This document shows positions 3,862 through 36,065 of a DNA stretch of 36,068 nt, piece after piece (the first letter of the stretch is position 1; each line of letters begins with the position of its first letter). Position numbers and translations under genes: made by a program. The DNA comes from Mollicutes bacterium. Lineage in GTDB: Bacteria > Bacillota_I > Bacilli_A > Izemoplasmatales > Izemoplasmataceae. The notes below the pieces were generated by a model. It worked only from the letters and a program-made list of their open reading frames with translations, was not told the DNA's origin and searched no databases. Location: positions 1-36,068 of the forward strand of contig PULR01000026.1 in the NCBI GenBank assembly GCA_003551005.1. The letters are read 5' to 3'.

Positions 3862-3909
3862 CTAGCAATCCCCCGCCTTGATGTGTATCATTACGGCGAG
3901 GTGATGCAG

Positions 3910-12690: not shown

Positions 12691-14079
12691 ATGCCTGGGA
12701 TGCCTGATCTATATTTGTTGATACTTGCGGCTATTCTCGCTGTGGCGTTGTTGCTGCACATCGGCGTGAGCCTGTATCGTCAGCGGTTAATCCGCCGCTA
12801 TCGACGGTTGCTTTATGAAGACGACCTGACGGGACTGCGCAAGACGACGTATCTCGAACGATATTTCCATGACATCCTCGTTTCGTTCGATCGGGATGTG
12901 TCGCTGTATTACGTGAACATCGACAATTTCAAGAACTACAACGACCTTTTCGGTCACCGCATCGCCAACGAACTGCTCAAACGCGCGGCGGCGAGGCTGC
13001 ATGCCGTGTGCAAGCAGCACGGGCATGTGTACCGCGTCCATTCGGACCGTTTTTTGATCTTGAACCCGACAGAAGAGGACCAGGAGGAAGCATTCAGCAG
13101 GCGCTTGCAGCATGCGTTCCGCGATCCTGTAAGCATAAACGGCCACGAGATACGTCTGACGGTGTCGGTGGGGCGCTACGATGTCGCCGACGACCAGAGC
13201 CGTTTCTACGATGTCTTGCTTAGAAGCGAGCTGGCCTCCCACGAGGCCAAGCGTCGCGGCAAGGATCGCGTCGCCCGCTATTCTTCGGAGCTCAAGCATG
13301 TTTCGCAGGATTCGTTCGAGATGTTTCAGGCGATTCGGGAAGCGATCGAGAAGCAACGGTTCCACCTCGAATTCCAGCCGACCGTCTCCTGGGCGGATGG
13401 AAAGATGCGCGGCTTCGAGGCGTTGATCCGCATCCATGATAAGCATCGTCTGCATTTCCCGCAGGACATCATCGGCTACGCCGAGCGCTACAACATGATG
13501 GAGGAGATCGACCGCTACGTTGTTGAACGCGCATGCAAGGCGCTCGCCCATATGAAATCAAAAGGGGTCCCGGTGGATTTTCTCTCGATCAACATCTCGA
13601 GCAAGGAAATCCACAACCCGGAGTTTCTCTCCACCATCGAAGCCGCACTCAAGGCCAACGGCCTCGAAGCCGGCGAACTCATCATCGAGTTCACCGAGAC
13701 CAACGACCCCGAAGGACTCGAGGCGGAGGCGACGTTCATCTCCAATCTTCGTGCGCTCGGCCTCAAGGTCGCCATTGACGATTTCGGGACTGGTTATTCC
13801 TCGATGGTGCGCCTCTCCCGCAACGTCATCGACCATATCAAGGTGGATCAGACCTTCATTCGCGACATCGCGAACAACAAGACCAATCAACGGCTGGTCA
13901 CGTCCATGGTCAAGCTCGCCGAGAGCTTCGAGCTCAGCCTTGTCATCGAAGGTGTCGAGAAACGCGCGGACTACGAGGCGCTTTCCGATCTCCCGATTGA
14001 TTACGCACAGGGATATTACTTCTACAAGCCCCTGACCATGCAGAAAGTCATTGAAACGTTCGCAGACGAAACATCTTGA
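12691..14079 (+). CDS. Membrane GGDEF-EAL protein; probable c-di-GMP phosphodiesterase with inactive cyclase domain
   Basis: The 462-residue protein has one N-terminal helix (about 5-26), a GGDEF-fold domain (about 40-200) and an EAL domain (about 215-455). The cyclase motif is HSDRF (117-121), so synthesis of c-di-GMP should be lost; the domain may bind GTP as a regulator. The EAL residues are intact: EAL at 243-245, NIS-S, EFTE, Asp-363/Asp-364 in DDFGTGYSS, Lys-384 (IKVD), Glu-420/423 in EGVE and Gln-440. Hydrolysis of c-di-GMP to pGpG is therefore expected. ATG 12691 sits behind AAGGAGG, 18 bases after the reductase gene, with no terminator between. It may be the last gene of the operon beginning at 9942. 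It would oppose the cyclases at 18914 and 22398 (inference). Confidence 0.88.
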   Translation: MPGMPDLYLLILAAILAVALLLHIGVSLYRQRLIRRYRRLLYEDDLTGLRKTTYLERYFHDILVSFDRDVSLYYVNIDNFKNYNDLFGHRIANELLKRAAARLHAVCKQHGHVYRVHSDRFLILNPTEEDQEEAFSRRLQHAFRDPVSINGHEIRLTVSVGRYDVADDQSRFYDVLLRSELASHEAKRRGKDRVARYSSELKHVSQDSFEMFQAIREAIEKQRFHLEFQPTVSWADGKMRGFEALIRIHDKHRLHFPQDIIGYAERYNMMEEIDRYVVERACKALAHMKSKGVPVDFLSINISSKEIHNPEFLSTIEAALKANGLEAGELIIEFTETNDPEGLEAEATFISNLRALGLKVAIDDFGTGYSSMVRLSRNVIDHIKVDQTFIRDIANNKTNQRLVTSMVKLAESFELSLVIEGVEKRADYEALSDLPIDYAQGYYFYKPLTMQKVIETFADETS

Positions 14080-18862: not shown

Positions 18863-18887
18863 TTTGTGATGGATCAGGTTGTATCAT
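18859..18887 (+). promoter_or_regulatory. Possible promoter of the diguanylate cyclase gene
   Basis: TTGATT (18859-18864), 17 bp, TATCAT (18882-18887). The -35 box overlaps the stop codon of the ABC gene. Both boxes are imperfect, so this could be chance. Confidence 0.4.
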
Positions 18888-18913
18888 GGAGTTATTGTCA
18901 CAGGAGGGTCGCT

Positions 18914-19792
18914 ATGCAGCATCTGATCGAGCGATTCAGACATCAACGCCCCCATCCGGACGGAGAGCTCCGATTTCTCATCGAGCGCTCGCCGTCCGAT
19001 TTCCGCGTGCATCTCCTTGTCGGCGACCCGACCCGCCTCGGATTTCCCGCGGACGATTCCTTCGACATGCGGACGATTGTCTCCGCCATCGCCTTCGACA
19101 ACGGCTTCTCCCGCATCACGGGCAAGCCGCACTATCGGCGTTTTCTTTGGGACAAGCTTGAAGCCGACCGCACGCAGGTCTTCCTCGTCCCCTTCCGGCA
19201 TGAGACCGTCCGCTGGGCGCTTCTGCGCACCCAGCCGCTCGAAGCGGAACCTTCCGTGCTGCACGGGGAGCTCCTGCACCTGAGCGAATCCGAGCCTTAT
19301 CCCCTGAAACTCTTCCGTCTCGCCCACCTTGACGACCCGACGGGGCTCTTCAACCGACAAGCCCTCCGCCTGCACCTCGAGCAGATCGACACCCGCGCCG
19401 ATTACCATGCCTTGTTCATCGACCTCGATGGTTTCAAGCGCATCAACGATACCCACGGACATCTCGCCGGCGATGCGGTGATGCAGAGCATCGCCCGCCG
19501 TTTCCGCTCGCTTGATGATGAAGCAGCCACCTTCTACCGCATCGGCGGCGATGAATTCGTGGTGCTGCTCAAGGGGTGCAAGGATGAGGGGGTTCTGGAC
19601 TATACCAGGCGTTTGAACCGCAGTCTGCGCGACCTGCCCGTCCCGGGCGGCACGATGAGCCTCACCGCTTCCATCGGCGTGTTGAACCTTGCGCATGTCA
19701 CGGATGGCTTCGATGCGTTGATCCGGCGCTCGGATGAAGCGATGTACGCCGCCAAGACCCAAGGCGGCGACAGCGTCCACATACTTGAATAG
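18914..19792 (+). CDS. GGDEF diguanylate cyclase without obvious membrane segment
   Basis: The 292-residue protein makes c-di-GMP from two GTP if active. The C-terminal GGDEF domain (about 135-290) keeps the metal and GTP residues: DPTGLFNR, FIDLDGFKRIND, GHLAGDAV and an intact GGDEF at 211-215. I see no RxxD inhibitory site just ahead of it, so product inhibition may be absent. The N-terminal 130 residues are a compact mixed domain of no family I recognise, and there is no signal peptide or membrane helix, suggesting a cytoplasmic sensor. ATG 18914 follows CAGGAGGG by six bases; the in-frame ATG at 18866 lacks such a site. A terminator follows. The adjacent exporter operon need not be related. 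Confidence 0.87.
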   Translation: MQHLIERFRHQRPHPDGELRFLIERSPSDFRVHLLVGDPTRLGFPADDSFDMRTIVSAIAFDNGFSRITGKPHYRRFLWDKLEADRTQVFLVPFRHETVRWALLRTQPLEAEPSVLHGELLHLSESEPYPLKLFRLAHLDDPTGLFNRQALRLHLEQIDTRADYHALFIDLDGFKRINDTHGHLAGDAVMQSIARRFRSLDDEAATFYRIGGDEFVVLLKGCKDEGVLDYTRRLNRSLRDLPVPGGTMSLTASIGVLNLAHVTDGFDALIRRSDEAMYAAKTQGGDSVHILE

Positions 19793-22357: not shown

Positions 22358-22442
22358 GCCAGCATGGCGGAATTGGTAGACGCGCTAGACTCAAAATCTA
22401 GTGGCCGCTGAGGCCGTGTCGGTTCGAGCCCGACTGCTGGCA
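22358..22442 (+). tRNA. tRNA-Leu(CAA)
   Basis: An 85-base class II tRNA. The acceptor stem is GCCAGCA / TGCTGGC with discriminator A at 22442. The anticodon stem CTAGA / TCTAG encloses CTCAAAA, giving anticodon CAA, which reads UUG. A long variable arm (TGGCCGCTGAGGCCG) as expected for leucine and a T-arm GTCGG-TTCGAGC-CCGAC complete it. The 3' CCA is not encoded (TGAA follows), so it must be added by a nucleotidyltransferase. Its 3' half is overlapped on the other strand by the end of the GGDEF-HD gene. Confidence 0.97.
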
Positions 22443-24077
22443 TGAATCCGTAAGCAGGGCGTCCACGAACGCGTCGGTGAAACGCGCGTCGTAGTGGACG
22501 CCTTTGTATTTTCTGAGGTGTGCGATGGCCGCTTCGCGGGAGAATTCCTGTTTCTGCGTGAGGGCGTCGTAGTCGTCGATCAAACGGAAGATTCTGGCCG
22601 TCTTGGGGATCTGCGTCCCCTTCAGTCCGAAGGGGAAGCCGCTGCCATCGACGTGTTCATGGTGCGTGAGGATGGCGTAGGCGACGTTCTTGAGCTTCGG
22701 AAAGGAGCTGACGATGCGGTGACCGATCTCCGGATGCTGGCGGTGGGACTCCTGAGTATCCCTCTCAGCATGGTTCCGGCCGAAGGAGATGCTGCCGATC
22801 TCGTGCAGGCGGACCAGCCCGAGCAGCTCGCTCATCTCGCCGGTCGCGAGACGCAGGGGTTCGTGGAAGCAAAGCGCAAGGTCCCGCAGGCGTTCAAGCC
22901 GCGCTTCGGTTTCGGACTGACGCTCGAAGAGCCTTTCAAGAAGGGCGCGCACCATGATACCCGTGTGTTTGTGGTGCTGGTGGATCTTGTCTTCGTAGAG
23001 TATGTTCTCCGCAGCCGCGAACGTATCCTGAAGGTCCGCGGCCGTGTTTTTTTGAAAGCCGAAGGCGACGGATTGAAAAGGAGAGAATTCGCGGTCCGTC
23101 TCGAAGTCCGTGCGGATGGATTCGATGAGTTGTTGAACTTCCTGCGTGTTGAAACGGGGGAGGACGGCGACGAATTCATCGCCGCCGATGCGTGCGAGCG
23201 TCGCGCTGCGCGGGAGCTGCTCCTTCAGCCGTCTCGCGAAGCGTATCAGCAGCCGGTCTCCGGCCTGGTGGCCGAAGACGTCGTTGATCAGCTTCAGATT
23301 GTTGATGTCGGCGAGGATGATGCCGGCCTGCTTGCGGTGTCGATGCTGGTTGAAGGACAGGTTGTAATAACGGCGGTTGAAGAGTTCGGTGAGGTCGTCG
23401 TGATAGCTCAGATGCTTGAGGTCCTTTTCCTTGAGCTTCTGGTCGGTGACATCGATAGCGAGGGTGGTGACAATCTGCAGACCCTGCTCGTCGCGGCCGA
23501 CGCCGAAACTGTAGAAATCCCACAGCAGCTCGGTATGGTCTTTCGTGGTCAGCTTGAAGTTGCCGTCGTAGGTTCGTTCATCGGTTCGGTAGCTGTGGGA
23601 GAAATGCTGGAAGACATCCTGGGCTCTTCGGGGGAAGAGCCGTTCGGCGAACGCCTTGAGCGACGGCAGATCGTGGAGATTGTAGCCCGTGCTGTTAATG
23701 AACGAGTCACTCAGCTTCAGGACTTGATGATTCTCCGCATGCAGCATCACCGGCATGGGGGAGTGCTCGATGAAGCGGAAGAGGAGGCTGTTGTGGCTTT
23801 TCACCCGCTCTTCGTAGTAGCTGAGCTCCTTCAGTTTTTGCTGGTAATCGTCAATAAACGCGCGGCGTTTCTGCCCTCGTGAATAAGAGAAACCGAAGAT
23901 GACGAACATGGATCCGATAATCAAAATGGCGCCGTTGGCGGTATGATAGGAAAGCGACGTCAAAAGCTCCGGGTTCATGCTGAGCGTGATGAGGTTCGCG
24001 CCTATCCAGATTCCGCCGTAGACACCTAACGCGATCAGCTGTATGAGCGTGTCACGGGTCCAGTCCATCGACTTCAT
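22398..24077 (-). CDS. Membrane PAS-GGDEF-HD protein (diguanylate cyclase with HD-GYP-like C-terminus)
   Basis: The 559-residue protein has two N-terminal helices (about 9-31 and 42-62), a coiled stretch, a PAS-like domain (about 95-215), a GGDEF domain (about 222-375) with intact GGDEF at 298-302, and an HD-GYP-like domain (about 390-545). The HD domain has HEIGS (425-429) instead of HD-I-G-K, then HPEIGHRI, HHEHVDGSGFP (472-482, GFP for GYP) and DDYDAL. The Asp-to-Glu change in the HD pair makes phosphodiesterase activity doubtful, so cyclase activity may dominate. Translation starts at the ATG complementary to 24075-24077 behind GGAGGG. The final 15 or so codons read the antisense strand of tRNA-Leu, and the TAG stop (complement of 22398-22400) lies in the anticodon stem. 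It diverges from the gcv operon. Confidence 0.87.
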   Translation of the reverse strand: MKSMDWTRDTLIQLIALGVYGGIWIGANLITLSMNPELLTSLSYHTANGAILIIGSMFVIFGFSYSRGQKRRAFIDDYQQKLKELSYYEERVKSHNSLLFRFIEHSPMPVMLHAENHQVLKLSDSFINSTGYNLHDLPSLKAFAERLFPRRAQDVFQHFSHSYRTDERTYDGNFKLTTKDHTELLWDFYSFGVGRDEQGLQIVTTLAIDVTDQKLKEKDLKHLSYHDDLTELFNRRYYNLSFNQHRHRKQAGIILADINNLKLINDVFGHQAGDRLLIRFARRLKEQLPRSATLARIGGDEFVAVLPRFNTQEVQQLIESIRTDFETDREFSPFQSVAFGFQKNTAADLQDTFAAAENILYEDKIHQHHKHTGIMVRALLERLFERQSETEARLERLRDLALCFHEPLRLATGEMSELLGLVRLHEIGSISFGRNHAERDTQESHRQHPEIGHRIVSSFPKLKNVAYAILTHHEHVDGSGFPFGLKGTQIPKTARIFRLIDDYDALTQKQEFSREAAIAHLRKYKGVHYDARFTDAFVDALLTDSCQQSGSNRHGLSGH

Positions 24078-24175
24078 TCCTGTCCCTCCGTTCGCTACAT
24101 TCATTCTATCACACACGTTATGGGGTGTATAGGCGCAACACCTCCGTGAAAAACCTTGAAACCCCTCCGTGTGTC

Positions 24176-24274: not shown

Positions 24275-25357
24275 ATGAAGAAAACAGCCCTCCACCCTGA
24301 ACATGTCCGCCTGCAGGCGAAGCTGGTCGAGTTTGCAGGTTACGAAATGCCCATCCAGTATACATCGATCAAGGAAGAACACCACGCGGTCCGGCAAAAG
24401 GCCGGTGTCTTCGACGTCTCGCACATGGGTGAACTCCATGTCTATGGCAAGGAAGCGACGGAGTTCCTCGATCATGTCTACACCAACAACATCCAATCAA
24501 TGACCGCCAAGCAGATTGTCTACGGCTTCCTCTGCATGGAAAGCGGCGGCGTGGTCGACGATCTGCTCATCTACAAGGTCAACGACCAGTCCTATCTGCT
24601 CGTGGTCAACGCAGCCAACAAGGATAAGGATTTCGAGTGGCTAAACAAACAGAACACCTTTGATGCCGCCGTCGTGGATGCGAGCGACGACTACAGCGAG
24701 GTCGCGCTGCAAGGCCCGCAGGCGGAAGCCGTGCTTCAGACCCGCATTCAAGCGGACCTTTCCGCCCTCAGGCCGTTCACCTTCGATTATTTCGACGTCG
24801 AGGGCGAAGAGTTCCTGATTTCGCGGACCGGATACACCGGCGAGGATGGATTCGAAATCTACGGCGATCATAAACCCGTTCGCAGACTCTTCGCCGGACT
24901 CATCGAGCGGGACGGCGTCACGCCCTGCGGCCTCGGCGCGCGCGACACGCTGCGCTTTGAAGCTGCCCTGCCGCTTTATGGGCACGAAATATCCGAGGAA
25001 ATCACCCCCATCGAGGCCGGATACGGCTTCGCCGTCGATTTCAAGAAACCGTCCTTCAAGGGCCGCGAGGCCCTGCTTGCGCAGAAGGAAGGTGGTCTCA
25101 CCCGGCGCATGGTCGGCCTCGAGCTTGAGGGCAAGGGCATCCCCCGCGAAGGATACCCTGTTGAAAAAGACGGTGAGACCATCGGCCATATCACGAGCGG
25201 GTACCTATCCCCGACCCTCGGCAGACCGATCGCCTTAGCGCTCATCCAGCGCCCCTTCACCAAGAGAAAAACAGAAGTGTCCGTCCGCATCCGCAGACGG
25301 ACCGTTCCCGCGACCGTCCGCAACAAGAAGTTCTTGTCACATAGAAAGACCAACTAA
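24275..25357 (+). CDS. gcvT: Glycine cleavage system T protein (aminomethyltransferase)
   Basis: The 360-residue cytoplasmic enzyme takes the aminomethyl group from lipoylated GcvH and, with tetrahydrofolate, yields 5,10-methylene-THF and ammonia. The length is standard (about 365). Visible family marks are [10 protein letters not shown], the [10 protein letters not shown] motif, and [11 protein letters not shown], with Asp-95/Asp-96 matching the catalytic aspartate region. Also present are [33 protein letters not shown] and the GCV_T C-terminal barrel with [19 protein letters not shown] 24275 lies behind AGGAAAGGATG. It is the first gene of gcvT-gcvH-gcvPA-gcvPB. Confidence 0.97.
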
Positions 25358-25374
25358 TTGAAGGAGTGGTAAGC

Positions 25375-25752
25375 ATGAAAGTACCGAAGAATCTCTACTA
25401 TACGGAGACGCACGAATGGGTGCGCGTCGAGAACAGCCACGCATACATCGGCATCACCGATTACGCGCAGGATTCCCTCGGCGAGATTGTCTTCGTCGAA
25501 CTTCCCGAAGAGAGCGACCAGCTTTCCAAGGGCAGCGAGTTCGGTGCGATCGAATCGGTGAAGGCCGCCTCGGATCTGCTCAGCCCGGTCTCGGGCGTTG
25601 TTGTCGCGATTAACGAGGACCTCGAGGACGCGCCGGAAAGCTTGAACGAGGATCCCTACGAGAACTGGATTGTCAAAGTCGAGCTCGAAGACGAAAGCGA
25701 ACTCGAAGACCTCAAGAGCGCGGGCGAATACGAATCGCTGATTGAAGAATAG
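25375..25752 (+). CDS. gcvH: Glycine cleavage system H protein (lipoyl carrier)
   Basis: The 125-residue carrier shuttles the aminomethyl group between GcvP and GcvT on a lipoyl arm. The lipoylation site is Lys-63 in [12 protein letters not shown], at the usual place. The opening [12 protein letters not shown], the [19 protein letters not shown] stretch and [10 protein letters not shown] near the end are characteristic. ATG 25375 lies behind AAGGAGTGG, 17 bases after gcvT; a GTG at 25366 overlaps that ribosome site. The lipoate ligase or synthase and the L protein are not in the window. Confidence 0.97.
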
Positions 25753-25762
25753 GGGGAGCGAC

Positions 25763-27091
25763 ATGTTCAAGTACTTGCCGCACACATCAGCGGACATAGA
25801 CGCCATGCTGAAGCGCATCGGCGTCGATTCTATCGACGAACTGTTCGCGGAGATTCCCTCCGAACTCAAGGATTTCGAGCTGAATCTGCCGGAGGCGTTC
25901 TCCGAGATTGAACTGCGTCGGCATTTCCAGGACCTCGCCGAACAGAACGAACCGCTTATTCCGTTCATGGGGGCCGGTGCGTACGACCACTACACGCCGA
26001 GCATCATCCCCTATCTGATTGAACGGCAGGAGTTCATGACCGCCTATACGCCCTATCAGCCGGAAGTCTCGCAGGGCACGTTGCAGTACGTGTTCGAATA
26101 TCAAAGCATGATCTGTGAACTCACCGGCATGGATGTCTCGAACGCCTCGATGTACGACGGGGCGACGGCGACGGCCGAAGCGATGTTCATGGCCAACGCC
26201 GTGCGCCGCAAGCAGGACCGCGTGCTCTATGCCGACACGCTCAATCCCAACATCGTCAGGGTCCTCGAGACTTACGCACACGTGCAGAACATCACCCTCG
26301 AAGCCATCCCGTCGAAAGCCGGCGCGGTTGACGCCGATGCGCTCAAGGAAGCGCTCGATACGGACGTCGCGGCCGTCATTGTCCAGACGCCCAATGTCTA
26401 TGGCGTGCTCGAGGAGCTCGACGTAGTCGGAGAGATGCTCGCCGATATGAAGGCGCTTTTTGTTGTCAACCAGGACCCGAGCACCCTCTCCCATCTCAAG
26501 CCGCCCAGCGTCTACGGGGCGGATATCGTCGTGGGCGAGGCGCAGTCGCTTGGCGTCCCGCTTTATTTCGGCGGACCCTACGTCGGCTACATGGCGACGA
26601 CGAAGAAACTGATGCGCAAGATGCCCGGACGCATCTGCGGCGTCACCGAGGATGTCGATGGCAAACGGGCGTTCGTGCTGACGCTGCAGGCGCGCGAACA
26701 GCACATCCGCCGCGAGAAGGCGACCAGCAACATCTGTTCGAATCAGAGCCTGATGGCGCTCTTTGTGACAATCTATCTGGCTGTCATGGGCAAGCAGGGC
26801 CTCTTTGAAGCGCAGCAGCAATCCTTCAACCACGCCCACTACCTGCAGGAGATGCTCACCAGCCTGCCGCATTTCGAGGTCGCGTTCGAGAAACCCTTCT
26901 TCAAGGAGTTCACGCTGCGCACGACGCTCGATGTCGAAGCGATGAACCAAAAACTGCGCGAGCATGGCTATCTCGGCCCGCTCTCGCACGGCAGGGACGA
27001 AACGGGCAAGACGCTCGTGACGTTCGCGGCGACCGAGAAGCGCACCAAAGCTGAAATGGACGACGTTGTCCGCATACTGGGGGAATTGTGA
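25763..27091 (+). CDS. gcvPA: Glycine dehydrogenase (decarboxylating) subunit 1
   Basis: The 442-residue alpha subunit of the split P protein, which with GcvPB decarboxylates glycine using pyridoxal phosphate. Length and sequence fit: MFKYLPHTSADIDAMLKRIG at the N-terminus, FMGAGAYDHYTPSII, TAYTPYQPEVSQGTLQ, the N-terminal P-protein motif NASMYDGATATAEAMFMA and REQHIRREKATSNICSNQSL near residue 320. The split form is common in Bacillota, Thermotogae and archaea, whereas many other bacteria have one fused protein. ATG 25763 lies behind AGGGGGAG, just after gcvH; gcvPB starts one base after its stop. Confidence 0.96.
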   Translation: MFKYLPHTSADIDAMLKRIGVDSIDELFAEIPSELKDFELNLPEAFSEIELRRHFQDLAEQNEPLIPFMGAGAYDHYTPSIIPYLIERQEFMTAYTPYQPEVSQGTLQYVFEYQSMICELTGMDVSNASMYDGATATAEAMFMANAVRRKQDRVLYADTLNPNIVRVLETYAHVQNITLEAIPSKAGAVDADALKEALDTDVAAVIVQTPNVYGVLEELDVVGEMLADMKALFVVNQDPSTLSHLKPPSVYGADIVVGEAQSLGVPLYFGGPYVGYMATTKKLMRKMPGRICGVTEDVDGKRAFVLTLQAREQHIRREKATSNICSNQSLMALFVTIYLAVMGKQGLFEAQQQSFNHAHYLQEMLTSLPHFEVAFEKPFFKEFTLRTTLDVEAMNQKLREHGYLGPLSHGRDETGKTLVTFAATEKRTKAEMDDVVRILGEL

Positions 27092-27092
27092 C

Positions 27093-28553
27093 ATGGCATA
27101 CTATGGCGACTTGATTTTCGAAAAGTCGGTAGCGGGCCGCAAAGGCTACTCGCTTCCGACAAGCGAAGTCGAAGAATACACGCTGGATTCGCGCTTTGCG
27201 CGCGAGGATGCGCCCGAGCTCCCCGAAGTCAGTGAATTCGACGTCGTGCGGCACTACACCAACGTCAGCTTCAAGAACCACGGCATCGAGACGGGGTTCT
27301 ATCCGCTCGGCAGCTGCACGATGAAATACAACCCGAAAATCAACCTCGAACTGTCTTCGAGCGAGAAGTTCACCGCCTTGCATCCCTATCAGCCCGTCGA
27401 GACGGTGCAGGGCATCCTCAAGATCTACTACGAGACCCAGCGGATGCTCTCCGAGATCAGCGGGATGGACACCTATTCGCTCAACCCCTTCGCCGGTGCG
27501 CACGGCGAGCTGGTGGGGCTGATGATCATGAAGGCCTTCCACGAACACAACAACGAGTCCAACCGCACGAAGGTCATCGTCCCCGACAGCGCGCACGGCA
27601 CCAACCCCGCCAGCGCGAAAGTGGCCGGCTTCGATGTCGTCGAGGTCCGCTCGAACTGCGAAGGCGATTCCTGCGACGGCACGATCAACCTCGAGCATCT
27701 CAAGGAGGTCCTCGATGAGGATGTCGCCGGCATCATGCTCACCAACCCGAACACGCTGGGCATGTTCGAAAAGGACATCCTCGAAGTCGCACGGCTCGTG
27801 CACGAGGCCGGCGGCCTGCTCTACTACGACGGCGCGAACCTCAACCCGATCATGAACGTCGCGCGGCCCGGCGATATGGGCTTCGACATCACCCACATCA
27901 ATCTGCACAAGACCTTCTCCACGCCGCATGGCGGCGGTGGCCCCGGCAGCGGCCCCGTCGGCGTCTCCAAGCGGCTCAAGCCCTTCCTGCCCGCGCCGAT
28001 CGTCCGCAAGGCCGGCGATCTGTATCTGATCGACGGCGGTGCGGAGGAGTCCATCGGGCAGATCAGCCACTTCCTCGGCAACATGAACGTGATCGTCAAG
28101 GCCTACGCCTATCTGCTCAGCACCGGCCGCAGACACCTCGCCGAGATCTCCAGGCTCTCGACGCTGAATGCGAACTACGTCAAGGAATCGCTCAAGGACG
28201 ACTACGAACTGCCCGTCAAGGAGAACTGCAAGCACGAGTTTGTCTTTGACGGCCTCAAGGACAACGACGAGGTGCGCGCGATCGATGTGGCGAAACGGCT
28301 GCTGGATTTCGACATGCACCCGCCGACGGTCTATTTCCCCTTGCTGTATGGGGAGTCGATGATGGTCGAGCCCGTCGAGAACGAATCCAAGCAGACCCTC
28401 GATGCCTTCATCGAGACCATGAAACACATCGCGAAAGAAGCGAGGGAGAACCCCGAGACCTTGAAGCAGGCGCCCTATCACACCCCTGTGCGCAGGCTCG
28501 ATGAAGCCGGGGCGGCGCGCAACCCGCGCGTGAAGTTCAAGGACCTGCTGTAG
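27093..28553 (+). CDS. gcvPB: Glycine dehydrogenase (decarboxylating) subunit 2
   Basis: The 486-residue beta subunit carries the pyridoxal phosphate lysine, Lys-273 in INLHKTFSTPHGGGGPGSG. Other family marks are HYTNVSFKNHGIETGFYPLG, CTMKYNPKIN, LNPFAGAHGE, PDSAHGTNPASA and YYDGANLNPIM. It forms the P complex with GcvPA. ATG 27093 sits one base after the upstream stop, with GGGGGA about ten bases ahead. It is the last gene of the operon, closed by a two-way terminator. Confidence 0.97.
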   Translation: MAYYGDLIFEKSVAGRKGYSLPTSEVEEYTLDSRFAREDAPELPEVSEFDVVRHYTNVSFKNHGIETGFYPLGSCTMKYNPKINLELSSSEKFTALHPYQPVETVQGILKIYYETQRMLSEISGMDTYSLNPFAGAHGELVGLMIMKAFHEHNNESNRTKVIVPDSAHGTNPASAKVAGFDVVEVRSNCEGDSCDGTINLEHLKEVLDEDVAGIMLTNPNTLGMFEKDILEVARLVHEAGGLLYYDGANLNPIMNVARPGDMGFDITHINLHKTFSTPHGGGGPGSGPVGVSKRLKPFLPAPIVRKAGDLYLIDGGAEESIGQISHFLGNMNVIVKAYAYLLSTGRRHLAEISRLSTLNANYVKESLKDDYELPVKENCKHEFVFDGLKDNDEVRAIDVAKRLLDFDMHPPTVYFPLLYGESMMVEPVENESKQTLDAFIETMKHIAKEARENPETLKQAPYHTPVRRLDEAGAARNPRVKFKDLL

Positions 28554-28627: not shown

Positions 28628-30532
28628 CTAATCGTCGCGTGCGTAGAAATAGGTGCTGCGCTGGCTGAAGAGTTTGGAGTTGTCGATCTCGAGGACCATC
28701 GGTTCGAGGACGGGGATGTCATCGAACGATTCCTCGACCGCACTGCTTTGACCGCCGGGGTGGATGTTGCGGATGTGGTTGATCGAAAAGCTGTGTCCGC
28801 TGTCATCTACCGCGGAGTGGACCGTGCGGATGAATCCTCCGGGGTCGTCGCTGTCGGGATCGGTGCCGGGACCGGACCACGGCGGCGGTCCGTTACCTCC
28901 CCATGGAGGTCCGCCACCGCCGCCACCGCCGTTATTGTTGGGGTCGTATGTCTCGGACCAGGCGAAGGGGGCGCCATCGGCGATAGGGCCATCGTTCTTG
29001 AGGGAATGGATGACGATGCCGCTGAGGGCTTCTAGTTCGCCTTCGTCGTTGCGCACGTAGTGATTGTCAAGCGGATCGCCCTGGGCGAGGGCGAAGACGG
29101 TGCCGCCGAAATGGGTCTTGTCGGTGGCGTGGATGAGGACGGACTGTTGTGAGAGGATGAAGAGCGGGACCCGGGTGCTGGTGCCTCCGTGTTCGTCTTT
29201 AGCGCTGTACGAATTGAGGATGCGGATGTGGCCGTCGGCGATGAGCGCGCCGCCTTCGCTCTTCGGACCGGGGCCGGGGTTTTCAAATCCGGTTTCTCCT
29301 TCGAAGTCGACGACGATCTCGCCGAGCGCGTATAGGTTTCCGAACAGCCGCATGTTATGTGACTTTTCGATGTGGATGTCGCCGGTCACGAAAATCTCGG
29401 TTTCCTGCGACAGTTCGTCCATGCGTTCGATGGTGAGGTCGCCGTGGATGATGAGCGTGTTGCCGTTGAAATCGATGGGATTTTCGAAATCGAATCGGGC
29501 GTCCCCGTCGACGAGCGTGTCGAACGGCAGAATCGGCATGCTGTCGACCTGGAGTTCATCGTCTACTGTCTCGTAATCTTCATCTTCACTGAGGTCGTAA
29601 AAGACGCCTTCGTCGAGTCCATCCGAGAGCACGGCGTCGTAGTTGTTCCTGCTGATGCCGGAAAGGTCGTCGATCTTGCTGTCGAAGGTTGTGAAGAAAT
29701 AGTTGTCGAAGTCGAAGCCGCCGAAGATGTTGTCGTAGTACTGGCGGTATTCAAAATCATCACTGAAGTCTTCGTGGTCCCGGATGTCCTGGTAGTTTTC
29801 AAAGACGAACTTGTCGTCGGTATCCTCCTTGAACTGCAGGCATTCCTCCCCTTCCGGGCAGTAGCGGAGGTCGCGCGTCGAGAAGTAGGAATCTTCGGCG
29901 CCGCCGGGCAGGTTTCCTTTGTCGGGTCTGTCGATGTCGTAGCTGCCATCGGCGTTGCGGATGACGGTGTCGTGTCCGGCGAGGATGGTCTGGCCGTAGA
30001 TGTTATCCGACCCGGCATAGTTTCCGCCATTGATGGCAAGCGTGCCATCGGTGCCCACAGAGAAGAGGAAGGCATCCTCGTTGTCACGCAGGAAGACGGT
30101 ATGGTTTGAAAGGTAGAGTTCGCGGACCATGTCGCGTCCGTCCTCGCGCGGATAGATGATGAGGAACTTACGGACGATGAATTCATCCGTCGAGTAGCGG
30201 GATTCCTCATCCTCTTCGATGACGACGCCCGTGTCCGCTTCGATTTCGTTGATCAGTTCTAGATCCTGCCAGTCGTCCTCGCCGAGGCCCTTGAAATATT
30301 CCATCCCTTCTTCCTCAAGAATATCGCGCATGCCGAACTCCAGGTCGTTCATGGCCTGGTCGATCGAGCGTTTGGCGACGTTTTCAGAGAAATTTCTCTC
30401 CACGCTCCGGCTGGTGTTCTCGGCGGTGCGAAGCGTATAGGCCGAGAGGGAAGTCAGCGAGAAGGTGAGGATGGCGACCATGACGATGGCGACCGTCAGG
30501 ACGCTGCCGCGTTGGTTTGTCAAGGTGCGCAT
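28628..30532 (-). CDS. Large PilX-like minor pilin/pilus assembly protein with a beta-helix-like body and a Gly/Pro-rich linker
   Basis: The 634-residue protein begins MRTLTNQRGSVLTVAIVMVA, a short basic leader, a glycine and a long hydrophobic helix without the usual Glu-5. That is the start seen in PilX-type minor pilins. The body is very acidic. Residues about 330-470 contain short repeated strands (LIIHGDLTIE, IFVTGDIHIE, LFGNLYALGEIVVD, ALIADGHIRIL) that look like a right-handed beta-helix or bactofilin-like stack. Residues about 545-580 are a low-complexity linker of Asn, Gly, Pro and Trp (NNNGGGGGGGPPWGG). It starts behind AGGAGGTG, 11 bases after the upstream pilin gene, and is the last of three. 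An exposed tip or adhesive subunit is a reasonable inference. Confidence 0.7.
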   Translation of the reverse strand: MRTLTNQRGSVLTVAIVMVAILTFSLTSLSAYTLRTAENTSRSVERNFSENVAKRSIDQAMNDLEFGMRDILEEEGMEYFKGLGEDDWQDLELINEIEADTGVVIEEDEESRYSTDEFIVRKFLIIYPREDGRDMVRELYLSNHTVFLRDNEDAFLFSVGTDGTLAINGGNYAGSDNIYGQTILAGHDTVIRNADGSYDIDRPDKGNLPGGAEDSYFSTRDLRYCPEGEECLQFKEDTDDKFVFENYQDIRDHEDFSDDFEYRQYYDNIFGGFDFDNYFFTTFDSKIDDLSGISRNNYDAVLSDGLDEGVFYDLSEDEDYETVDDELQVDSMPILPFDTLVDGDARFDFENPIDFNGNTLIIHGDLTIERMDELSQETEIFVTGDIHIEKSHNMRLFGNLYALGEIVVDFEGETGFENPGPGPKSEGGALIADGHIRILNSYSAKDEHGGTSTRVPLFILSQQSVLIHATDKTHFGGTVFALAQGDPLDNHYVRNDEGELEALSGIVIHSLKNDGPIADGAPFAWSETYDPNNNGGGGGGGPPWGGNGPPPWSGPGTDPDSDDPGGFIRTVHSAVDDSGHSFSINHIRNIHPGGQSSAVEESFDDIPVLEPMVLEIDNSKLFSQRSTYFYARDD

Positions 30533-30543
30533 AGGGGCACCTC

Positions 30544-31170
30544 CTAGAAGACGAGAGTGGTGGTGAACTGTTTCGCGTTGAACAGGGGTTTATCCTGGAT
30601 GATGTAGTTGAGTTCGAGATCCAGGCGGATGATGGCGCTGTAGCACTTCATCTCCCCTTGGAAGCGGTCCTGCGCGATGCAATCAAGCCGGATGTCGCTG
30701 TTTGGCTCGATGCGGACGTCGTCGGTGTTGAGCTGCGTGCCCTGTCTATCTTCGAATTGCGGGTTCTGATAATCATAGATGAAATTGTCGCTGTTTCCGT
30801 AGTGTATGGTTCCCTCGGTGAAGTCAAGGTGCAGGATATAGGAGTCGCTGGTCGAGTAATCCCGCCTCACAGAACCGGTCTCAGGATCGACGACGATGTC
30901 GTATTCATGGTTGAGCTGAAGGATCTGGTGTTCGTCTTCGTCTTCGACTTCAAGTTTCTCCGCGGTGCGCACACCGAGGTCGAAGATCTCGGCCTGCAGA
31001 TATTCGGAGATGTTGTAGGACTCCTGGAGGAGGCGGTTCTCATGATCCATGAAATTCTTGCTGACGAGGGTGGTCGAAAGGATGCTCATGAGCATCGCGA
31101 TGACGACGCTGCCCACGGAGATGGTCACAAGCAGCTCGAAGAGCGTGACGCCTTTCTCGTTTCTAATCAC
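30544..31170 (-). CDS. PilW/GspJ-like minor pilin (prepilin)
   Basis: The 208-residue product has a class III leader: VIRNEKG followed by VTLFELLVTISVGSVVIAML. Prepilin peptidase would cut after Gly, leaving Glu-5 in the mature helix (VTLFE). I start at GTG, complement of 31168-31170, because the GAGGGGG ribosome site lies nine bases ahead and this overlaps the upstream stop by eight bases. The ATG at 31209 would place the leader 13 residues too deep. The rest is an acidic pilin head with Cys pairs (LDCIAQ, MKCYS). With its neighbours it likely forms the priming tip of a type IV pilus. Confidence 0.82.
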   Translation of the reverse strand: MIRNEKGVTLFELLVTISVGSVVIAMLMSILSTTLVSKNFMDHENRLLQESYNISEYLQAEIFDLGVRTAEKLEVEDEDEHQILQLNHEYDIVVDPETGSVRRDYSTSDSYILHLDFTEGTIHYGNSDNFIYDYQNPQFEDRQGTQLNTDDVRIEPNSDIRLDCIAQDRFQGEMKCYSAIIRLDLELNYIIQDKPLFNAKQFTTTLVF

Positions 31171-31786
31171 GGCTGATGTCCCCCTCGACGAGCAGGCTCT
31201 GGTTGACATCCGGTGCGTAATCGATCCAGATGTAGGCTCTTAGGAAATTCGGGGTTGCGGGCATCTGCTCGGGGTCGGTCTGCAGGATGGCTTGTCGGAC
31301 GTCTTCGGGTAGTTCTTCCATTTCCTCGATATCCGCGAGCGCATCCTCATCGTCCCAGATGAGATAGGAGACGTAATAGATATGGAAATCGGCTTCGGCG
31401 AAGGTGATGCCGCTCCATTGCTGATCGAAGACGATTCCGCAGACATCCTGGCTGGATTTTTCCACAACGACCTCGTCGTCTTCATTTTCTTCGCCGTTTT
31501 CGTCGCCGACTTCGCCGGTGTCGTCGGTGAAACCGTCACAATCATCCTCGATGAGCCGGACAGCGGGGTCTCCCGAATCGTTCAAGTGGTCGACCAGGTC
31601 TGCGTAGTCGACTTTATTCAGCATCTCGATGGTAGCATCCCCGAGGCTGGAGGCCGCCCGACGGTCATGCATGCGTTCGTTCACGGAGAAGTTGCCGATG
31701 AACGCGCTGAGCAGGGGCAGCACGATAGCCGTGGCGATGACGATGACCGCCAGCAGTTCGACGAGTGTGAAGCCTTTTTTGTCCAT
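31163..31786 (-). CDS. PilV/GspI-like minor pilin (prepilin)
   Basis: The 207-residue product starts MDKKGFTLVELLAVIVIATA, a canonical prepilin: a short basic leader, Gly, then Phe at +1 and Glu at +5. The head contains an acidic stretch (about 95-120) rich in Asp, Glu and Gly, and two cysteines. I choose the ATG complementary to 31784-31786, since the open frame upstream would bury the leader. It is the first gene of the minus-strand pilin operon, whose promoter lies about 40 bases upstream. It should be processed by a prepilin peptidase (not in this window) and assembled with PilB and PilC. Confidence 0.86.
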   Translation of the reverse strand: MDKKGFTLVELLAVIVIATAIVLPLLSAFIGNFSVNERMHDRRAASSLGDATIEMLNKVDYADLVDHLNDSGDPAVRLIEDDCDGFTDDTGEVGDENGEENEDDEVVVEKSSQDVCGIVFDQQWSGITFAEADFHIYYVSYLIWDDEDALADIEEMEELPEDVRQAILQTDPEQMPATPNFLRAYIWIDYAPDVNQSLLVEGDISRD

Positions 31787-31823
31787 GTCGCATCCACCGC
31801 CTCGCTTGTCCGGATTACAAAAT

Positions 31824-31852
31824 ATTATATCATAGAACCGTGACTTTTTCCA
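31824..31852 (-). promoter_or_regulatory. Promoter of the minor pilin operon
   Basis: On the minus strand the -10 is TATAAT (complement of 31824-31829), with a 17 bp spacer and -35 TGGAAA (complement of 31847-31852). It diverges from the plus-strand pil promoter 43 bases away, so the two pilus operons could be co-regulated from this gap. Confidence 0.6.
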
Positions 31853-31894
31853 CATTCTGACGCTCAGCGAACGCCGCTCCTCTGCCCTCTCCCT

Positions 31895-33142: not shown

Positions 33143-34831
33143 ATGGCCAAGAAATCCCCCAAACGCCTCGGTGATGTGCTTGTCGAAGAGGGCGTCGTCA
33201 CCGAGGAGGAGATCAACGAGGCGCTACGCAAGCGCGACCGCGGCGAAAAGCTAGGCGAAGCGCTGGTCCGTTTCGGCTATTGCACGGATTCGCAGATTGT
33301 CGATGCGCTTTCGGAGAGCCTCGGCATCAAGCGTGTCAACCTGGGCATGATCTTCGTTGACGACCAGGTTCTCAAGCTGCTCGATGAGGAGTTCGTGACC
33401 AAGGCCAAGATCATGCCGATCAACATCACCGGCCGCCGCCTCGTCATCGCCACCAACGACCCGCTCGACTTCCCGACCATCGAGAACGTCCGGCTGAAGA
33501 CGGGCATGAACGTCGAGACCGTGCTCGCCACCAAGAACGACATCGAGACGGCCATCGCCCGCTACTATGGGTTCACGAAGACGCTCAAGAGCCTCGGCAT
33601 CGAGGCCGAGAAGGAGAAGCAGGAACACGAGAAGTTCTACGAAGAGCTCGTCAAGGAACCCGAGCAGGACGCGAGCGAAAGCCCCATCATCCAGCTCGTC
33701 AATCAGATTCTGCTCACCGCCGTCAAGGCGGAGGCCTCCGACATCCACATCGACCCCACGGAGATCGAGTTCAAGATCCGCTACCGCATCGACGGCGTGC
33801 TCACGACCGAGCGGCTGCTCCCCAAGGTCATCCTGCCCAAGCTCATCAGCCGCATCAAGGTCATGGGGCACATGGACATCACCGACACGCGCAACCCGCA
33901 GGACGGCCGCATCAAGACCGTCATCGAAGGACGTCCGGTGGATCTGAGGATCTCGACGCTACCGACCGTCCGCGGCGAGAAGTGCGTCATGCGCGTGCTC
34001 GACCTCACGAGGGATTCGAAGGGCATCGACCGCCTCGGCTTCACCGAGACCGAGAAGCAGCGCTTCATGAAGCTTATCAGCCGTCCCAACGGCATCGTCC
34101 TCGTCAGCGGGCCCACCGGGTCCGGTAAGACGACCTCGCTCTATGCGGCGCTTGATCAGCTCAACGACCCCGAGGATAACATCATCACCGTCGAGGACCC
34201 CGTCGAGATCGAGCTCGAGGGCATCAACCAGGTCAACGTCAACCCCGACATCGACTTCACCTTCGCCAACGCCCTGCGTTCGATCCTCCGGCAGGACCCC
34301 GACATCATGATGATCGGTGAGATCCGCGACGTCGACACCGCGCAGATCAGCGTCAAGGCGGCCCTCACGGGCCACTTGGTGCTCTCGACGATCCACACCA
34401 ACAGCGCCGTCAAGACCATCGGCCGCCTTGTCGACATGGGGATTGACCCCTTCCTCGTGGCCTCCTCGCTCTCGGGCATCGTCGCCCAGCGCCTGGTGCG
34501 GAAGGTCTGCCCGGTGTGCGGCAAGACCGAACGCCCCACGGAGAACGAACAGGAGATCTTCAAGAAGCACGGCTATGAGATCAACAAGGTCCGCCGCGCC
34601 GTGGGTTGCTCAAGCTGCAACAACAAAGGCTACAAGGGGCGCACGGCGGTCTTCGAGATTCTGGATGTGAACGACCGCATCGCCCGCATGATCTCCAACA
34701 ACGAAAAAGAATACGACATCCTCGACGCCGCGAGAGAAGACGGCACCCGCCTCCTCGTCGAGGCCGGACTGGAGAAAGTCAAGGCCGGCACCACGAGCGT
34801 CGAGGAGATCTTGAAGCTCGGACTCGACTAG
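33143..34831 (+). CDS. pilB: Type IV pilus assembly ATPase PilB (GspE/PulE family)
   Basis: The 562-residue cytoplasmic ATPase powers pilus extension through PilC. Walker A is SGPTGSGKTTS (322-332), with an Asp box near 350, Walker B IMMIGEIRD (about 389-397) and a His box near TGHLVLSTIHTN. The zinc-binding cysteines are Cys-456/459 (CPVC) and Cys-489/492 (CSSC), which mark PilB/GspE and not PilT. The N-terminal domain carries two RLG/KLG repeats (KRLGDVLVEEG... and EKLGEALVRFG..., residues 7-60) of the MshEN type that binds c-di-GMP in MshE. ATG 33143 lies behind AAGGAAGTG. It is followed after 10 bases by pilC. Confidence 0.95.
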   Translation: MAKKSPKRLGDVLVEEGVVTEEEINEALRKRDRGEKLGEALVRFGYCTDSQIVDALSESLGIKRVNLGMIFVDDQVLKLLDEEFVTKAKIMPINITGRRLVIATNDPLDFPTIENVRLKTGMNVETVLATKNDIETAIARYYGFTKTLKSLGIEAEKEKQEHEKFYEELVKEPEQDASESPIIQLVNQILLTAVKAEASDIHIDPTEIEFKIRYRIDGVLTTERLLPKVILPKLISRIKVMGHMDITDTRNPQDGRIKTVIEGRPVDLRISTLPTVRGEKCVMRVLDLTRDSKGIDRLGFTETEKQRFMKLISRPNGIVLVSGPTGSGKTTSLYAALDQLNDPEDNIITVEDPVEIELEGINQVNVNPDIDFTFANALRSILRQDPDIMMIGEIRDVDTAQISVKAALTGHLVLSTIHTNSAVKTIGRLVDMGIDPFLVASSLSGIVAQRLVRKVCPVCGKTERPTENEQEIFKKHGYEINKVRRAVGCSSCNNKGYKGRTAVFEILDVNDRIARMISNNEKEYDILDAAREDGTRLLVEAGLEKVKAGTTSVEEILKLGLD

Positions 34832-34841
34832 GAGGTCCAGC

Positions 34842-36065
34842 ATGAAAATATTCGACTACAAATACAAAGCCAAGCGCATGCGTGACGGCAAGATCGTGCG
34901 CGGCCGCACGGAAGGGCCTTCGAAAGTGATTGTCGATCAGTTCCTCTTCGAGAACGGCCTGCGCGCGCTCGAGATCGAGCGCTACAAGAGCATCTACGGC
35001 GCCCTCAACCGCATCACCTTGAGCAAGGTGATCAAGGAGAAGGATTTGATCTTTTACCTCAAACAGCTCGCGAGCCTCCTGCGCTCGGGGGTGAAGATCA
35101 ACGAGGCCTGTGAGATCCTCGCCGCGCAGCAGACGAACAAGAACGTCCGCCGCATCCTCTTCGGCGTCTACTACGCCGTCAACAGCGGCCAGTCCTTCTC
35201 CGACGCCCTCAAGGAGCACCCCCGGGAGTTCCCGAAGATCCTCGTCTCGATGATCGAGGTCGGCGAGGCGACCGGGGACCTCGATGAGGTGCTCAACGAG
35301 GCCGTCGAATATTTCGAGAAGCAGTACCGGCTGAAGATGTCGATCCGCTCGACGTTGATGCTGCCGGTGATCTATCTCGTCGTCGCCGTCGGTGTGGCGA
35401 TCTTCCTCATGGTCGGCGTCATGCCGCAGTTCGAGGGGATGTACGACACGCTCGGCGGGGACCTGCCGGGGGTGACGATCCTCTTCATGAACGTGGGGGA
35501 CTTCATCCGTACGAACGCGCTTTTCATCCTGCTGGGCCTGCTGGTACTCATCGCTATCGGCATCCTCGTCTATCGGCGTTTCTACAAGGTGCAATACACC
35601 CTGAGCAAGCTCGCGATCAAGATGCCCATCTTCGGCGAGCTCGTCAAGCTCAACAACCTCTCGCGCATCGCCTCGACCATCGCGGAGATGCTCAAGAACC
35701 ACGTGCCCCTGCAGGAGAGCATCAAGAACACCTACGAGCTCATCGACAACCGCGTCTATCAGGAACTTCTGATCCGCGCGCAGAAGAACGTCACCTCGGG
35801 TGAGTACATGTCGCGCGCGTTTGAACACCATTACGCGAGCGAAGTCGTCTTCAACCGCATGATGGGCGTGGGCGAACGCACGGGCGAGCTCGGCAAGATG
35901 ATGAACAACCTCTCGGATTTCTACGACGAGGACAGCGACATCAAGATCGAGCAGATGAAGGCGGCGCTGCAGCCGATTCTCCTCATCTTCATCTACATCC
36001 TGATCATCATCATGATCCTCGCGGTCATGCTGCCCTCACTCGCCTTGTCCGATCAGCTGATGTAA
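34842..36065 (+). CDS. pilC: Type IV pilus inner-membrane platform protein PilC (GspF family)
   Basis: The 407-residue protein is complete, ending three bases before the window edge. It has two GspF repeats: a first cytoplasmic domain with FYLKQLASLLRSGVKINEAC and a second with RIASTIAEMLKNHVPLQESI. Membrane helices lie near 172-195, 226-247 and 377-400. Motifs typical of PilC are MIEVGEATGDLDEVL in repeat 1 and MGVGERTGELGKMM in repeat 2. It forms the rotor that PilB drives and hands pilins to the growing fibre. ATG 34842 lies behind TAGGAGGTCC. The operon probably continues beyond the window, with prepilin peptidase, PilM-O or the major pilin as candidates. Confidence 0.95.
   Translation: MKIFDYKYKAKRMRDGKIVRGRTEGPSKVIVDQFLFENGLRALEIERYKSIYGALNRITLSKVIKEKDLIFYLKQLASLLRSGVKINEACEILAAQQTNKNVRRILFGVYYAVNSGQSFSDALKEHPREFPKILVSMIEVGEATGDLDEVLNEAVEYFEKQYRLKMSIRSTLMLPVIYLVVAVGVAIFLMVGVMPQFEGMYDTLGGDLPGVTILFMNVGDFIRTNALFILLGLLVLIAIGILVYRRFYKVQYTLSKLAIKMPIFGELVKLNNLSRIASTIAEMLKNHVPLQESIKNTYELIDNRVYQELLIRAQKNVTSGEYMSRAFEHHYASEVVFNRMMGVGERTGELGKMMNNLSDFYDEDSDIKIEQMKAALQPILLIFIYILIIIMILAVMLPSLALSDQLM

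Follow-up and report, generated by a model that had tools for sequence, protein, structure and literature searches.

The window analysed here, that is, the whole stretch of 36,068 nucleotides from a Mollicutes bacterium of the Izemoplasmatales (contig PULR01000026.1), contains a set of type IV pilus genes, one of which encodes a giant pilin of 634 amino acids. This locus raises the question of what function such an oversized protein could perform in a pilus. The observations described below indicate that it is probably a modular minor pilin which caps the tip of a type IV pilus and carries a solenoid receptor head. The features of the gene and its neighbours are collected in Table 1.

Table 1. 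Features of the giant pilin and of the adjacent pilus genes, with the basis of each assignment.
Feature	Position	Strand	Basis
Giant minor pilin, putative tip (K-type) subunit, 634 aa	28628..30532	-	ORF, homologues, third gene of pilin triad
Predicted leader peptide MRTLTNQRG, residues 1-9	30506..30532	-	Sequence; segment conserved; prepilin peptidase gene in same genome
Predicted hydrophobic N-terminal helix, residues 10-40	30413..30505	-	Predicted model, low pLDDT
Predicted pilin domain, residues 41-145, helix and three strands	30098..30412	-	Predicted model; aligned across family
Insert lead-in, residues 156-320	29573..30067	-	Model mostly of low confidence; much found only in long forms
Conserved Cys pair CPEGEEC, residues 225 and 231	29840..29860	-	Invariant in 13 long-form alignment rows
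Predicted beta-solenoid, residues 321-510	29003..29572	-	Predicted model, block pLDDT 47-90; structural alignment
Gly/Pro/Trp linker, residues 532-566	28835..28939	-	Sequence
CCGCCACCG x 2.3 repeat within linker codons, 9 bp unit	28911..28931	.	Sequence
Conserved C-terminal segment, residues 595-634	28631..28750	-	F603 and P607 invariant in family alignment; model pLDDT <50
Minor pilin B, GVTLFELL, Glu5 present, J position	30544..31209	-	PF07963 E 9.3e-6
Minor pilin A, GFTLVELL, Glu5 present, I position	31163..31855	-	PF07963 E 1.6e-5; gspI E 4.8e-4, below its cut-off
Conserved 391-aa protein, N-terminal hydrophobic segment	31950..33125	+	Conservation
PilB-type assembly ATPase with MshEN c-di-GMP-binding domain	33143..34831	+	PF00437 E 3.5e-135; PF05157 E 4.5e-18; NF053729 above cut-off
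PilC/GspF platform protein	34842..36065	+	PF00482 E 3.2e-51

The giant pilin and its locus

The open reading frame, which starts with ATG, is exactly as stated in the preliminary description of this DNA, and it is not a chance frame because its homologues in related genomes (21-40% identity) conserve the start, the blocks and the C-terminus. The N-terminus resembles that of class III prepilins (NQRG/SVLTVAIVMVAILTFSLTSL, also given as NQRG/SVLTVAIVMVAILTF), where a short leader of basic character leads up to the Gly of the cleavage site and a hydrophobic helix comes next, in prepilin fashion (MRTLTNQRG/SVLTVAIVMVAILTFSLTSLSAYT), and the protein would be cleaved after Gly9 by an enzyme of the prepilin peptidase type. 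This layout, including the hydrophobic helix, is kept in all 17 family members that have an N-terminus. The same 17 proteins lack the glutamate at mature position 5 (Glu5), which is replaced by Val in the window protein, and the N_methyl family (PF07963) gave no match to it. Further downstream, Cys225 and Cys231 could possibly form a disulphide.

The gene is the last of a pilin triad in which pilin A precedes pilin B and pilin B ends eleven bases upstream of the giant-pilin gene; the genes for the 391-aa protein, PilB and PilC run divergently from this triad. The window contig stops three bases past PilC, and the pilus operon resumes on another contig of the same genome (C5) with genes for prepilin peptidase, PilM and PilN. 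In those loci of relatives that have enough sequence, PilB and PilC are followed by genes for a pilin, for prepilin peptidase and for PilM, PilN and PilO, in this order. The retraction ATPase PilT was not found in the window genome (assembly 96.66% complete), where the sole strong T2SSE match is PilB.

Of the 24 loci examined, 20 have sequence upstream of the giant-pilin gene. In each of these, pilin B comes immediately before it, and in 18 the contig also carries pilin A, ahead of pilin B; the other four loci are truncated by a contig end at or within the giant-pilin gene. The preliminary description had anticipated that other genomes, too, would have the protein together with pilin genes, and the small-small-large order is indeed kept in every informative locus. 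Being third in the triad and devoid of Glu5, next to two pilins that have it, the giant protein is, by these sequence features, a capping pilin of the GspK/ComZ type. The earlier identification of a giant minor pilin is borne out; the accompanying label 'PilX-like', for which the window protein gave no family match, is replaced here by GspK/ComZ-type, on account of gene position and absent Glu5.

The machinery has parts in common with the type II secretion system (T2SS), and the giant protein could be imagined as a surface or secreted protein that leaves the cell through the pilus machine in a T2SS-like manner, not as a pilus subunit. This is very improbable given the prepilin-type N-terminus with its hydrophobic helix and the fixed place of the gene in the pilin triad in every informative locus. 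The preliminary description offered a tip adhesin or a separate surface fibre; the former is near to the capping pilin that we favour, whereas the latter has found no support.

Several features of the surrounding genes are also of note. The 391-aa putative membrane protein is encoded in almost all relatives, mostly divergently from the triad, and has no family match in Pfam or NCBIfam; 'VanW' serves as a label for this gene and not as a family assignment. In many relatives, the glycine cleavage operon (gcvT, H, PA, PB; 24275-28553) adjoins the operon of the tip pilins, a long-range synteny for which no functional reason is apparent. Three c-di-GMP-type genes are located within 22 kb of the MshEN-type PilB gene (12691-14079, GGDEF-EAL; 18866-19792, GGDEF; 22398-24116, PAS-GGDEF-HD). 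Together with a PilB whose MshEN domain scores above the c-di-GMP-motif cut-off, these GGDEF/EAL/HD genes suggest that the pilus is under c-di-GMP control. In two relatives, the large-pilin gene differs in place or orientation with respect to PilB-PilC (L048 5169-6973 in G019 and L052 1-759 in G028).

Family and distribution

A search with the single giant-pilin sequence yielded matches in 22 of 61 related genomes, 21 of which are real; the remaining one, in G040, reads as an unrelated protein. A profile built from 19 rows matched 27 of the 61 related genomes; in a sample of 198 genomes of the class, it matched 22. No match for the giant pilin was found in Pfam or NCBIfam, the GspK families included, or among PDB sequences by single-sequence search. 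Among PDB sequences, the profile matched only a leucine-rich repeat protein, with E 0.0048, and, with E 0.36, a phage spike; both matches are short, fall on the repeated strands and were rejected. Sequence homology to ComZ was not found either by phmmer or by profile search of PDB sequences. The PilX_N family (PF14341) gave no match in the giant pilin and a single one among the 19 family members (E 0.69). Four pattern matches in viral contigs proved to be unrelated. Searches of the literature on pili in Izemoplasma, Izemoplasmatales and Izimaplasma, in Tenericutes and Mollicutes, and on ice-binding minor pilins retrieved no description of the family, which is no proof of absence.

In genomes of the sister family (f3), the third gene of the same triad encodes a pilin of 375-398 aa, and the profile of these pilins matches the giant-pilin profile over the solenoid (probability 97.9 and E 3.8e-13 in hhalign). 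Among the 27 genomes with a giant-pilin profile match, 22 have T2SSE over the cut-off; the other five (G003, G005, G006, G025 and G032) are each at most 88% complete. The 34 genomes without a profile match include 12 with T2SSE over the cut-off: in six of these, the corresponding third gene encodes a pilin of 375-398 aa, four end on contigs of 3.2-5 kb, in G020 the sequence is cut at the pilins, and G037 carries a different cluster. The latter (L098 8162-16873) is pilus-like, with proteins of 611 and 738 aa among small pilins. Genomes from other families within the class encode pilins of 583-673 aa in the triad (L106 7197-10020, L107 5065-7086 and L108 6211-8217), and in G074 the large pilin gene comes first, followed by two small ones.

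Predicted structure and known counterparts

The giant pilin was modelled with AlphaFold2 using six sequences. The mean pLDDT is 51.8, and blocks of 10 residues score 48-76 for residues 51-140 and 47-90 for residues 271-510; the N-terminal helix, most of residues 142-270 and residues 511-634 are unreliable. Residues 321-510 are modelled as stacked strands. Foldseek returned nothing at E <= 0.001, its best match (E 0.41) and the others being unrelated folds, and the candidates were realigned structurally and ranked by Z. The first twelve ranks are all occupied by ice-binding or antifreeze proteins (Z 9.8-10.6, 162-179 residues, rmsd 3.3-4.0), with 6eio at the top (Z 10.6, 171 aligned residues, rmsd 3.4), and these alignments begin at residue 156. 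ComZ (6qvi_C) follows in thirteenth place and is aligned over both of its domains (Z 9.2, 272 residues, model residues 46-633, rmsd 12.4). The next unrelated beta-helix has a Z of 8.8, so that scores of 9-10.6 are modest. The model of a distant homologue (L033) is poorer (pLDDT 42.3); acyltransferase-type helices are mixed with pectate lyases and ice-binding proteins in its best rows, the first ice-binding protein is ninth (Z 8.1), and ComZ is not among the matches listed. Tapirin C-terminal domains are cellulose binders encoded beside pilus genes; their likeness to the giant pilin (Z 7.0) is not above background.

Judging by the model, a beta-solenoid is likely, and the ice-binding/ComZ subtype is favoured. 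The structure prediction thus agrees, with modest confidence, with the beta-helix-like body that the preliminary description had expected. It had also suggested a resemblance to bactofilin; the predicted fold is nearest to the solenoids of ice-binding proteins and ComZ, the giant pilin has no match to bactofilin (PF04519), and likeness to the Pfam families DUF7305 and bactofilin is limited to sub-cut-off matches in remote third-gene pilins (three and two of eight, respectively). The best match of the solenoid is to ice-binding proteins with the DUF3494 fold (6EIO, 4NU2), but sequence identity is 8-13% and no claim of ice binding is made.

The closest known counterpart is ComZ of Thermus thermophilus (PDB 6QVI), which in its published account is likewise a large pilin without Glu5 encoded beside small pilin genes (PMC6561018), with Gly at position 5 where the giant pilin has Val. 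The same account finds the solenoid of ComZ to be most similar to an ice-binding protein, describes the ComZ pilin domain as GspK-like and places the solenoid between the penultimate and the last pilin strands (PMC6561018). The predicted fold of the giant pilin aligns over both ComZ domains, although the two proteins share no detected sequence similarity and the MshEN-type PilB, the Gly/Pro/Trp linker ahead of the C-terminus and the strong acidity set the present system apart. Because the last segment is conserved and ComZ provides a precedent, we infer that the C-terminus returns into the pilin domain; the model has pLDDT <50 in this segment, so that both the return strand and the insertion point are putative.

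GspK, in the GspI-J-K tip of T2SS, is similarly a third gene product after two pilins with Glu5, lacks Glu5 itself, has an extra domain and is presumed to form a cap, whereas its insert is described as alpha-helical (PMC6561018) in contrast to the beta-solenoid predicted here. PilB and PilC of Streptococcus sanguinis also combine a pilin with a bulky functional module, are compatible with a tip location and act with other minor pilins, but their modules are reported as vWA or lectin domains attached at the end (PMC8179133, PMC9934059), and not apparently inserted as the solenoid is here. Pilins of the ComZ or modular kind are thus already known, and what is new is probably the linker layout and the hint of cassette exchange discussed below. 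The description of ComZ was that of an unusual structure in a single Thermus species, and the presence of ComZ-like tip pilins across a lineage of small-genome Mollicutes relatives would make solenoid-headed tips a more general solution.

Linker and acidity

The Gly/Pro/Trp linker noted in the preliminary description is present just ahead of the conserved last segment, and its stretch GGGGGGGPPWGGNGPPPWSGPG begins at residue 535. Comparable Gly/Pro stretches are found at this site in L002, L003 and L005 and in none of the more distant long forms. Counted from the last solenoid motif, the C-terminal part is 130 aa long in the window protein and 114, 123 and 114 aa long in L002, L003 and L005, respectively (genus g1), compared with 68-82 aa in the nine other proteins in which the motif was found. 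In L004, the linker site is occupied by other sequence with a weak match to CBM5/12 (E 0.038 and 14.5 bits for the whole protein, E 0.016 and 15.7 bits for the piece, against a cut-off of 26.2 bits), and a second piece of L004 has no CBM match; this sub-cut-off carbohydrate-binding module is a lead and no evidence. The CCGCCA/CCGCCG repeat in the linker codons reported earlier does exist as a short 9-bp repeat. It is trivial, however, and since the codons are mixed (GGC/GGT/GGA), CCGCCACCG is no obvious slippage tract.

The giant pilin is acidic (pI 4.16, 20.0% D+E, 6.8% K+R, net charge -84), as the preliminary description emphasized, and so are all of its full-length relatives (pI 4.05-4.32). 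This property is not peculiar to the family: the pI is 4.05 and 4.47 in the two adjoining pilins, 4.05 in the protein of 391 aa and 4.05-4.07 in two putative exported proteins from other parts of the window. A 611-aa protein of pI 4.07 encoded at 3883-5718 contains Ig-like repeats and is likely a surface protein.

Proposed function

Type 4 filaments are reported to start from a minor-pilin tip complex that is capped by a subunit without Glu5 (PMC10191384). By analogy, one operon would yield the giant pilin together with the ordinary minor pilins A and B, all three would be cut by the prepilin peptidase, and the resulting tip complex would start filament assembly by PilB and PilC. Having no Glu5 and being too large to fit into the shaft, the giant pilin would end up as a single cap at the pilus tip. 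Its pilin stem would carry the inserted solenoid head, tied back by the flexible Gly/Pro/Trp linker, and the solenoid would be displayed to the environment as a receptor or adhesin. The MshEN domain of PilB might gate pilus extension by c-di-GMP. For the head itself, attachment to surfaces or polysaccharides appears somewhat more likely than DNA capture, considering the c-di-GMP-type PilB, the precedents among modular pilins and the weak hint of a carbohydrate module in one relative.

A tip receptor for DNA, which like ComZ of Thermus would catch extracellular DNA and pass it on to ComEC, to be used in transformation or as a nutrient, is a rather doubtful alternative. It draws on the overall architecture, which is predicted to be that of ComZ, on the DNA binding described for ComZ (PMC6561018) and on the ComEC family, which is found in 57 of the 61 relatives and in the window genome. 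However, ComEC is present with or without the giant pilin (31 of 31 good genomes) and hence does not discriminate. DNA binding by ComZ is described as dependent on lysines (PMC6561018), whereas K+R make up the small share of the giant pilin given above and its net charge is strongly negative, although such acidity is general among the exported proteins here.

Long and short forms of the tip pilin

Short forms of the giant pilin, of 376-429 aa, are encoded in G003, G012, G019, G022, G026 and probably G028. The K position and the triad are kept even in these proteins, so that priming of assembly would need no large head, and the protein could be an assembly initiator and cap only, with the solenoid as a scaffold that has no ligand of its own. 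We consider this unlikely: within the family, giant pilins are 21-40% identical to that of the window, compared with 74-93% for PilB, a divergence that fits a ligand-binding part.

The genomes with short forms group together in the tree of the giant pilin on shared columns (96/98, five rows) and likewise in those of pilin B (100/100, five rows) and of pilin A (86/90, four rows). Such agreement would be expected if the three proteins work as a complex. In the flanking genes, by contrast, the short-form genomes are not one clade (gcvPB, four rows, p-AU 5.6e-10; the 391-aa gene, six rows, p-AU 0.0055); in the PilB tree, which has no row for G003, a single clade was not rejected (p-AU 0.42). The giant-pilin trees exclude L005 and L014, which have no N-terminus, and alignment A1 does not contain G010, G025, G027, G028 and G033. 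G019 is represented by a 272-aa fragment in the gcvPB tree and was dropped as a fragment from the gcvPA tree, in which a gcvPB sequence collected by mistake stands for G032 (branch 5.45); G032 was scored as long from a C-terminal fragment only.

The main case is G003, a genome of the window's genus (69% complete) in which the tip genes and both flanks are on one 30-kb contig. It groups with its genus in gcvPB (98/98) and gcvPA (89/91); the 391-aa gene groups it there too, but with weak support (62/63). Constraining G003 to its genus was rejected for pilin B (p-AU 3.6e-5) and for the solenoid core (0.0028). The rejection is less clear for the pilin domain of the giant protein alone (0.025), where G003 is placed beside the long g1/g2 group with weak support, and pilin A does not reject the constraint (0.085). 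Because G003 has short-type tip pilins between flanks that group with its genus, it is tentatively conceivable, mainly from this one genome, that A, B and the solenoid cap form an exchangeable cassette by which related species swap the whole tip, of the long-head or the short-head type, between otherwise inherited pilus loci. Ancient duplication with loss might also explain the pattern of short and long forms. If the cassette is real, a swap would change the grip of the pilus and leave the machine untouched, and the long and short alleles would offer a natural experiment on the function of the head. A history shared by pilins against that of their flanking genes would, moreover, be a way to tell which minor pilins form one complex. 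Beside the short tip pilin of G022, we also observe a 457-aa frame with a pilin-like match (L047 12756-14129, minus strand), perhaps another oversized pilin.
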